From the NCBI RefSeq assembly GCF_900188185.1, contig NZ_FZPA01000005.1, positions 124,001-188,000 on the forward strand: a DNA stretch of 64,000 nt. Reading direction: 5' to 3'. This stretch comes from Sphingopyxis indica. GTDB lineage: Bacteria > Pseudomonadota > Alphaproteobacteria > Sphingomonadales > Sphingomonadaceae. Position 1 is the stretch's first letter. Every line of letters starts with the position of its first letter. This document shows positions 62,672-63,950 of the stretch, one piece after another. Made by a program: the position numbers and the translations under genes. The notes below the pieces were generated by a model. The model saw only the letters and a list, made by a program, of their open reading frames with translations, was not told the origin of the DNA and did not search any database.

Positions 62672-63796
62672 TTACGCGTGGTCGATGACCAGGCCGTCGA
62701 TCTCGTTCGCGACATCCTCGAATCGGTCGACGACGCGTTCGAGGTGGCTGTAAAGCTCACGCGCGATCATGAAGTGGATCGTGTTCTGCTCGCCATGTTC
62801 GCGGAACAGCCGCTTGAGCCCCGCCGCGTGGATCTCGTCGGCATGGCCTTCCATGCGCACCAGCCGCTCGGTCAGCTCGTGCAGCCGCGGGCCGTTCGCC
62901 GAAATATTGCGCAGGAGCGGCAGCGCCTCGACCGTCAGCCGCGCCGAATCGACGATGATGCCCGCGATGTCGCGCATTTCGGGATCGAATTCGCGGACGT
63001 CGTAAAGGTCGACCGCCCCCGCGGTCTTCTGCATCTCGTCGATCGCATCGTCCATCGAGGCGATCAGGTCGGTGATCGCGCTGCGGTCGAAGGGGGTCAG
63101 GAAGGTGCGGCGCACCGTCTGCAGCACTTCGCGGGTGATCGCGTCGGCGTCGTGCTCGCGCTCGACGATTTCCTGAATATGGTCCGCCATGCCGTCGCCG
63201 CCCTGGAGCAGCCGCGCGAGCGCCTCCGATCCTGCGGCGAGCGTCGCCGCATGGCGTTCGAACAGCTCGAAGAAATTGCCCTGCCGCGGCAGCAGGCGCT
63301 GGAACCAGGCGAACATGCGGCTAACCCCCGTCTTGTCTGCAATCGTATCGACGACGCCGCTCGTGCGCGCAGCCGCGCGAAAGCCGCTGTCGCCGAAGGA
63401 GCGGATCATCGCCTGCAGGTCGGGCTCATCGACGACCTCGGCGGCCTTGTCGAGCGCGAACCAGCGCCGCTCGCGCTCGTCCTGCTCCTTCCATTCGCCG
63501 AGTTCCTTGGTCACCGCGAGCGGAAACACCTCGACGTTGAGCATCACCGACGCGCCATTGGCGCGGCGCTTGCGATAATGATAGCTGCCGATCGCGGTCG
63601 GGCAGACCGCGCCGAGCACTCCGGCTTCCTCCTCGGCCTCGATCGCCGCCGAGGCGTGGCGCGACAGGCCGGTGAGCGGATTGCCCTTGGGAATCACCCA
63701 GCGCCCGGTGCCGCGCGAGGTGATGAGCAATATCTCGGTCGGGCCGTCGCGCCCGGGGCCGCCGAAGCGATAGGGGAGAACCGCGATCTGTCGCAT
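62672..63796 (-). CDS. Fusion protein: Nudix hydrolase domain plus DUF47 (PhoU-like) domain
   Basis: 374 residues. Residues 1-140 are a DIPP-type Nudix domain: RGTGRWVIPKGNPLTGLSRH then ASAAIEAEEEAGVLG. The box (G-x5-E-x7-REUxEExGU) is degenerate: the first Glu is missing and Arg is Ile, while Glu-Glu-Glu-Ala-Gly is kept. Residues about 160-374 are DUF47/PhoU-like helices (FFELFERHAATLAAGSEALA, EREHDADAITREVLQ, FDRSAITDLIASMDDAIDEM). DUF47 proteins normally stand alone beside Pit carriers as likely regulators. GGAGGAGG precedes the ATG. A double Pho box lies 46 bp upstream. A polyphosphate or inositol-pyrophosphate-like ligand is conceivable, not shown. Confidence 0.92.
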   Translation of the reverse strand: MRQIAVLPYRFGGPGRDGPTEILLITSRGTGRWVIPKGNPLTGLSRHASAAIEAEEEAGVLGAVCPTAIGSYHYRKRRANGASVMLNVEVFPLAVTKELGEWKEQDERERRWFALDKAAEVVDEPDLQAMIRSFGDSGFRAAARTSGVVDTIADKTGVSRMFAWFQRLLPRQGNFFELFERHAATLAAGSEALARLLQGGDGMADHIQEIVEREHDADAITREVLQTVRRTFLTPFDRSAITDLIASMDDAIDEMQKTAGAVDLYDVREFDPEMRDIAGIIVDSARLTVEALPLLRNISANGPRLHELTERLVRMEGHADEIHAAGLKRLFREHGEQNTIHFMIARELYSHLERVVDRFEDVANEIDGLVIDHA

Positions 63797-63842
63797 GACG
63801 CCTCCTCCTTTCCTGACCGGCGGCCGGGGGCAGCGGCCGTTG

Positions 63843-63882
63843 ATGACAATTGGGTGACGCCCCTATGACAATATCGTGACAG
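63843..63882 (-). promoter_or_regulatory. Double Pho box (four 7-bp repeats at 11-bp period)
   Basis: On the minus strand: CTGTCAC, TTGTCAT, GCGTCAC and TTGTCAT, each separated by exactly 4 bp (plus-strand starts 63843, 63854, 63865, 63876). This is the PhoB-binding layout (CTGTCAT direct repeats). It precedes the Nudix-DUF47-pitA operon and faces a possible divergent gene at 63951. Confidence 0.82.
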
Positions 63883-63950
63883 CGGCAATGGGCTGCGTTC
63901 CAGGCCTCGCAGTTTCCGTAAACGTCAATTCGATTGCAAAATGCAACGCT

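Follow-up and report, generated by a model that had tools for sequence, protein, structure and literature searches.

A predicted PhoB operator within the core promoter of a nudix-DUF47-pit operon in Sphingopyxis indica

The pstS promoter of E. coli is activated by PhoB. In activated promoters of E. coli, the Pho box replaces the -35 element, as an excerpt of PMC3616915 describes. Control of the phosphate permease Pit varies among species according to a portion of PMC4415409, and the transporter is called constitutive in Agrobacterium in an excerpt of PMC12501420. In S. meliloti, the orfA-pit operon is repressed on phosphate starvation and has its Pho box immediately before the putative start of translation (a passage of PMC3131613), while pit is listed as one of the genes most strongly repressed under phosphate stress and SMc02862 is named as a pit accessory protein (both in passages of PMC8829014). 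Part of PMC3616915 places the boxes of SMc02862 farther upstream of the transcription start and suggests that such boxes may serve repression; the arrangement in S. meliloti may therefore not be the same as at the locus described here.

The window, that is, the whole 64-kb stretch of Sphingopyxis indica DNA that was analysed, contains a nudix-DUF47-pit operon preceded by an array of Pho half-sites (Table 1). We take orfA of S. meliloti to be a DUF47 gene. As in the orfA-pit operon (SMc02862-SMc02861), at least in the excerpts that describe it, an accessory gene stands before pit and a Pho box lies upstream. Those excerpts report repression of the S. meliloti operon on phosphate starvation, whereas repression of the window operon is predicted from sequence. 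The window further differs from S. meliloti in that Nudix is fused to DUF47, four half-sites lie in the promoter spacer, and an internal translation start is likely. A literature search covering titles and abstract openings of the best-ranked open-access matches returned no Nudix-DUF47 fusion and no PhoB control of pit in sphingomonads.

Table 1. Features of the operon and its upstream region, in window coordinates
Feature	Position	Strand	Basis or remark
Four Pho half-sites, 11-bp period	63843..63882	(-)	sequence reading, pst-derived weights, genome pattern search
Half-sites 1-4	63876-63882, 63865-63871, 63854-63860, 63843-63849	(-)	
Predicted -35 TTGCCG of the nudix-DUF47-pit promoter	63883..63888	(-)	tRNA-derived promoter weights
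Predicted -10 TAGGGG, 17 bp from -35	63860..63865	(-)	tRNA-derived weights; overlaps last base of half-site 2
Fused Nudix-DUF47, 374 aa	62672..63796	(-)	Pfam PF00293 + PF01865
Internal in-frame ATG, Met161	63314..63316	(-)	invariant in 81/81 rows
SD-like GGGGGTT	63323..63329	(-)	six bases before internal ATG
Pit phosphate permease (PHO4 family), 337 aa	61644..62657	(-)	PF01384, 306.8 bits

Read on the minus strand from 63882 to 63843, the array is CTGTCAC-GATA-TTGTCAT-AGGG-GCGTCAC-CCAA-TTGTCAT, a series of 7-bp direct repeats near CTGTCAY with an 11-bp period, and its half-sites are oriented toward the pit operon. The initial annotation had described four 7-bp repeats at an exact 11-bp period matching the PhoB box and lying 46 bp upstream of the start codon. 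Both statements were borne out: the four-site array is by far the best in the window, scoring 38.9 against 5.4 for the next-best non-overlapping array on either strand of the 64 kb, and 46 bp (63797-63842) separate it from the ATG (63794-63796). The half-site weights behind these scores were learned from pst promoters, without use of pit sequences, and derive from 28 of a sample of 30 pst loci, since L111 and L112 do not match the box expression and are excluded from the 28-promoter set; 29 further genomes have a pst match outside the sample. Across the 4.15-Mb genome, the pattern TGACAN6TGACRN6TGACA matches only once, at the array, compared with about 0.005 occurrences expected from base composition alone.

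A single PhoB in the genome exceeds the curated cut-off (TIGR02154, 339.6 bits against 296.2; C12:6261-6932). Its gene shares a contig with that of the one PstS-type binding protein, at a distance of 4.3 kb, and pstS also carries its own Pho boxes. The PhoB model has 31 matches in the genome with one over the cut-off, so the sites might in principle bind another OmpR/PhoB-family regulator, and the regulator at C31:104278 is indeed adjoined by closely similar CTGTCACCAAGCTGTCAC sites. We regard this as quite unlikely, because half-site weights taken from the archetypal PhoB target, pst, put the array above all else in the window and because the target operon is one for phosphate transport. At the C31 locus itself (L090 1501-1569; G000:C31:104089-104157), a pair of identical, oppositely oriented CTGTCACCAAGCTGTCAC sites lies between a TonB-receptor-like ORF, recognised by eye, and the OmpR-family regulator, and perhaps constitutes that regulator's own operator.

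The expected Nudix-DUF47-Pit operon is present, with two genes rather than three: Nudix and DUF47 form one 374-aa ORF, which makes two ORFs in total, and the fused gene is separated from pit by 14 bp. The fused protein comprises a Nudix domain (aa 17-122), a linker (aa 136-171), and a DUF47/PhoU_div domain (aa 170-371); its structure model has a mean pLDDT of 81, with aa 136-171 below 50. The PF00293 match reaches 25.2 bits against a cut-off of 21.1. In Nudix proteins, the catalytic glutamates lie in the helix motif REUXEEXGU; here E53, E56, and E57 are invariant in 81 of 81 rows, and two positions of the classical Nudix box, the R and the upstream E, are replaced. The best solved relative of the Nudix half is human DIPP1 (NUDT3), a diphosphoinositol polyphosphate phosphohydrolase, with an E-value of only 3e-5, and that of the DUF47 half is the PhoU-like 3l39 (1e-20); these are separate proteins, whereas in the window both halves are joined in one.

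Comparison with relatives was based on 80 named loci, the best 80 of 219, among which the highest protein identity is 93%, to Sphingopyxis sp. GW247-27LB, and the nearest named relatives are Sphingopyxis. The matched frame is stop-free in all 80 of these best orthologs out of 219, with pit behind the fused gene in 79 of them; the remaining locus (L014) is cut off at its contig end. Within the family, a match was found in 109 of 298 genomes, and 91 of the 109 matches span residue 19 or earlier to residue 374 (counted by hand). Within the class, 54 of 385 genomes have a match; besides the S. indica genome itself, it is full-length in three, all of one other family, and the others are partial. 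Fifteen part-match regions were fetched, 13 of which have a separate DUF47 gene, with pit adjoining in 13 of 13, and two of which have the Nudix gene only.

Weights for ordinary promoters were trained on tRNA upstreams of the same genome, again without pit sequences; 30 of the 43 tRNA genes found had their upstream DNA included. The pattern TTGnnn-N16-18-TAnnnn occurs within 90 bp upstream in 18 of these 30 genes, with a spacing of 17 in 12 of 30 (for example, TTGTCA-17-TAGGGG and TTGCCA-17-TAAGGG), compared with a mean of 1.3 and a maximum of 5 of 30 in 300 shuffles. By these weights, TTGCCG-N17-TAGGGG in front of the fused gene scores 16.0, which is equalled by none of 972 shuffled upstreams, the shuffles used for promoter and box statistics preserving base composition only. 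Half-sites 1 and 2 occupy the 17-bp spacer between -35 and -10, and the transcription start is predicted at about 63852-63854, under half-sites 3 and 4. The locus is thus laid out as a Pho box over the predicted core promoter of an accessory-pit operon, and the TTG of the -35 element is kept across the 44 aligned Sphingopyxis-clade sequences. A dRNA-seq study of S. granuli TFA is mentioned in an excerpt of PMC7713065.

A significant box (p<=0.003) was detected in 67 of the 80 named orthologs (best 80 of 219 relatives), and at the same threshold 43 of the 44 Sphingopyxis-clade members have it, 74-110 bp ahead of the matched start. The geometry of the window, with a forward box at +6 that fills the spacer, recurs in 40 of the 44, and in the three other box-bearing loci of the clade the -35 is worn. 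In these three, L013, L014, and L017 (Sphingopyxis), the usual register can be recognised by eye and the promoter weights favour an upstream site (+38); they are not in the count of 40 and were given the common label by hand for the tree. Many Sphingopyxis have weak half-sites 3 and 4. In Sphingopyxis flava (L005, protein 91% identical), which is among the closest relatives, no significant box was found and TTGCCG-17-TAGGGG is retained, which reads as a box lost and a promoter kept.

Outside the Sphingopyxis clade, the box is shifted, reversed, or absent and, if present, usually lies on the best promoter, although exceptions exist. Among the best 80 of 219, a reversed box at -7, over the -35, occurs in 16 loci that belong to a clade of mostly Novosphingobium; a forward box stands at -11 in three loci and at 0 in two, and single loci have it at +10, +18, and -13. 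In 57 of these best 80 of 219 loci, a significant box (p<=0.003) overlaps a best promoter that is itself significant (p<=0.03), and the geometry classes need eight changes on the protein tree, with three rows hand-labelled. No significant box was found in 13 of the 80 named orthologs (best 80 of 219), ten of the 13 being Sphingomonas by record name. These Sphingomonas-recorded loci (L051-L053, L056, L060-L062, L081, L083, and L084) have the same operon; because ten Sphingomonas loci are without a significant Pho box, pit control probably differs within the family.

The sites had also been said to face a possible divergent gene. Such a gene exists, identified through weak NCBIfam matches as a flavin-dependent monooxygenase with its ATG at about 64015, just outside the window, and the box does sit between the members of this divergent pair. 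Its control of the monooxygenase is nevertheless very unlikely. Among the best 80 of 219 loci, the gene is found in 44 of 44 from the Sphingopyxis clade and in 0 of 36 others, yet 24 of those 36 have the box; moreover, the conserved core promoter around the box is oriented toward pit and not toward the monooxygenase. The gene was ruled out as the box target on its distribution across these 80 loci, and the box is considered to go with pit because the monooxygenase is confined to the Sphingopyxis clade while loci without it have the box. Within the monooxygenase promoter region, window positions 63913-63928 hold TTTCCGTAAACGTCAA, the reverse complement of which occurs exactly in 27 of the 44 Sphingopyxis-clade loci; we take this sequence to resemble LiuR-type sites.

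A second set comprised 45 further loci (32 fused, 13 with stand-alone DUF47), scored at a box cut-off of p<=0.005 with 200 shuffles each; unnamed loci in this set may be of the same species as named ones. A box was detected in 26 of the 45, and in 10 of those 26 the best promoter is also significant (p<=0.03), with the box at +6 in four, at 0 in two, at -11 in one, at +28 in one (L148), at -46 in L135, and at -19 in L219. The reversed -7 form is represented by L142, with a promoter p of 0.05. In these 45 further loci, the +10 and +18 forms have no significant promoter, and L220 and L226 have a box with no credible promoter.

The direction of control is best judged against the pst promoters of Sphingopyxis, which are PhoB-activated and share the half-sites and the 11-bp period with the pit array. 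In the 28 pst upstreams, an ordinary promoter does not stand out, the best score of 7.7 being reached by about one in ten shuffles. A -10-like hexamer lies 10 bp after the box instead (CATTGG in 18 of 28); the best -10 score at +9 to +12 averages 4.0, against a null 95% value of 3.3, and no -10 overlaps the box end (score -5.9). At pit, by contrast, the -10 overlaps the end of half-site 2, with a mean score of 7.2 over 44 sequences, and no -10-like element is found 9-12 bp after half-site 2 (-3.9) or half-site 4 (-2.9). Rather than standing in place of the -35 with a -10 about 10 bp later, the pit box lies between or on the two elements of an ordinary -35/-10 pair. The pst promoters of the genus have an activator-like spacing, opposite to that of pit. 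The Sphingopyxis pstS promoters (L098 763-801, G000:C12) carry two back-to-back Pho boxes, one of which faces away from pstS, and such a pair, captured by one expression, is present in 28 of 30 pst loci.

It had initially been left open whether this Pit is induced or repressed on phosphate starvation. Activation by PhoB, with the array working as in the pst promoters, would agree with half-sites that face the operon in the window and throughout the Sphingopyxis clade, like the forward pst box. It would also agree with the three loci in which a forward -11 box overlaps the -35, close to where an activator would bind, and with L135 and L219, where the box is upstream of a significant promoter, as it likewise is upstream of the promoter in L134 and L221. 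Yet activation seems improbable: a -10 at activator spacing was sought after half-sites 2 and 4 and none was found, unlike in pst, and the pit operon has a full ordinary promoter. The box is, moreover, reversed in 16 of the 80 loci (best 80 of 219) and lies at the end of the -10 in L148 (+28) and just after it in L189 (+29, promoter p 0.05), positions from which activation is implausible. Repression, on the other hand, is favoured by the promoter geometry, the contrast with pst, and the S. meliloti precedent. Weighing against it are the 13 of the 80 named orthologs (best 80 of 219) that have no significant box, the further loci whose box is upstream of the promoter or has no credible promoter, the weakness of half-sites 3 and 4 in many Sphingopyxis, and an uneven precedent. 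We infer both PhoB binding to the array and the direction of control, and we consider it quite probable, from sequence and by analogy, that PhoB represses the nudix-DUF47-pit operon by promoter occlusion on phosphate starvation.

The fused gene also appears to be under selection at the nucleotide level around an internal start. Its strongest synonymous bias falls at window positions 63314-63334 on the minus strand. Of the 374 codon columns, the two most biased are 156 and then 157, and the top five four-codon windows begin at codons 153-157, the best scoring 1.70 against a median of 0.26 and a 95% value of 0.59. Thr156 is encoded by ACA in 51 of 62 Thr rows, compared with 6.6% of Thr codons overall, and Gly157 by GGG in 63 of 68 rows, compared with 18.5% overall. 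The resulting stretch AAGACAGGGGT...ATG is Shine-Dalgarno-like and lies at a normal distance from the start codon. In the window, Thr156 is encoded by ACG and the stretch is GGGGGTT. A different, weaker form such as AAAGGT occurs in the 13 of 81 rows of the Sphingomonas clade, where residue 157 is other than Gly. In the structure model, the first DUF47 helix begins at Met161, which falls within the low-confidence stretch. A stand-alone DUF47 gene, L222 (of the same genus by its handle), begins with acaggggtaagccgATG; because this stands behind an in-frame stop, its ATG is a true start, and its stretch, shared with several fused genes, sits one base closer to the ATG than in those. Several of the codons shortly downstream of Met161 and of Met1 show bias too, as is expected near starts. 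Taken with the SD-like sequence, the selected start codon makes translation initiation at Met161 likely. Since the invariant Met161 follows the most biased codons, which are SD-like and nearly identical to a true DUF47 start, the fused gene probably also makes free DUF47.

It is proposed that the array serves as a PhoB operator inside the core promoter of the nudix-DUF47-pit operon. When phosphate is plentiful, RNA polymerase would use TTGCCG-N17-TAGGGG, so that Pit and its DUF47 partner are made. On phosphate starvation, phosphorylated PhoB, which turns on pst, would bind the array as up to two dimers; by covering spacer, -10, and start site, these would shut the operon off. As the same regulator would turn on pst and shut off the pit operon, low- and high-affinity uptake would be reciprocal. 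Transport by Pit can run in either direction, and phosphate could leak out through it when the outside concentration is low. The internal translation start in the fused first gene would provide free DUF47 as well. We tentatively suggest, as possible rather than probable, a fuller picture in which a DIPP-like Nudix-DUF47 fusion and free DUF47, both from one reading frame, form a phosphate/pyrophosphate-sensing gate of Pit, with a PhoB off-switch in the promoter spacer whose operator has been moved or reversed during evolution, usually remaining on the promoter.

A PhoB-repressed pit is itself known; what would be new here is a PhoB-repressed pit with its operator in the spacer, together with a fused Nudix-DUF47 and a probable internal start. 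The contrast between a box situated between -35 and -10 and a box situated 10 bp before a -10 may offer a testable rule by which the sign of PhoB control could be read off a sequence. Such a rule would be of value because Pit control differs among bacteria, as a portion of PMC4415409 indicates. The apparent loss of the box in S. flava represents a natural experiment, and the conserved, probably dual-product Nudix-DUF47 gene links a pyrophosphatase-like domain to a phosphate transporter.
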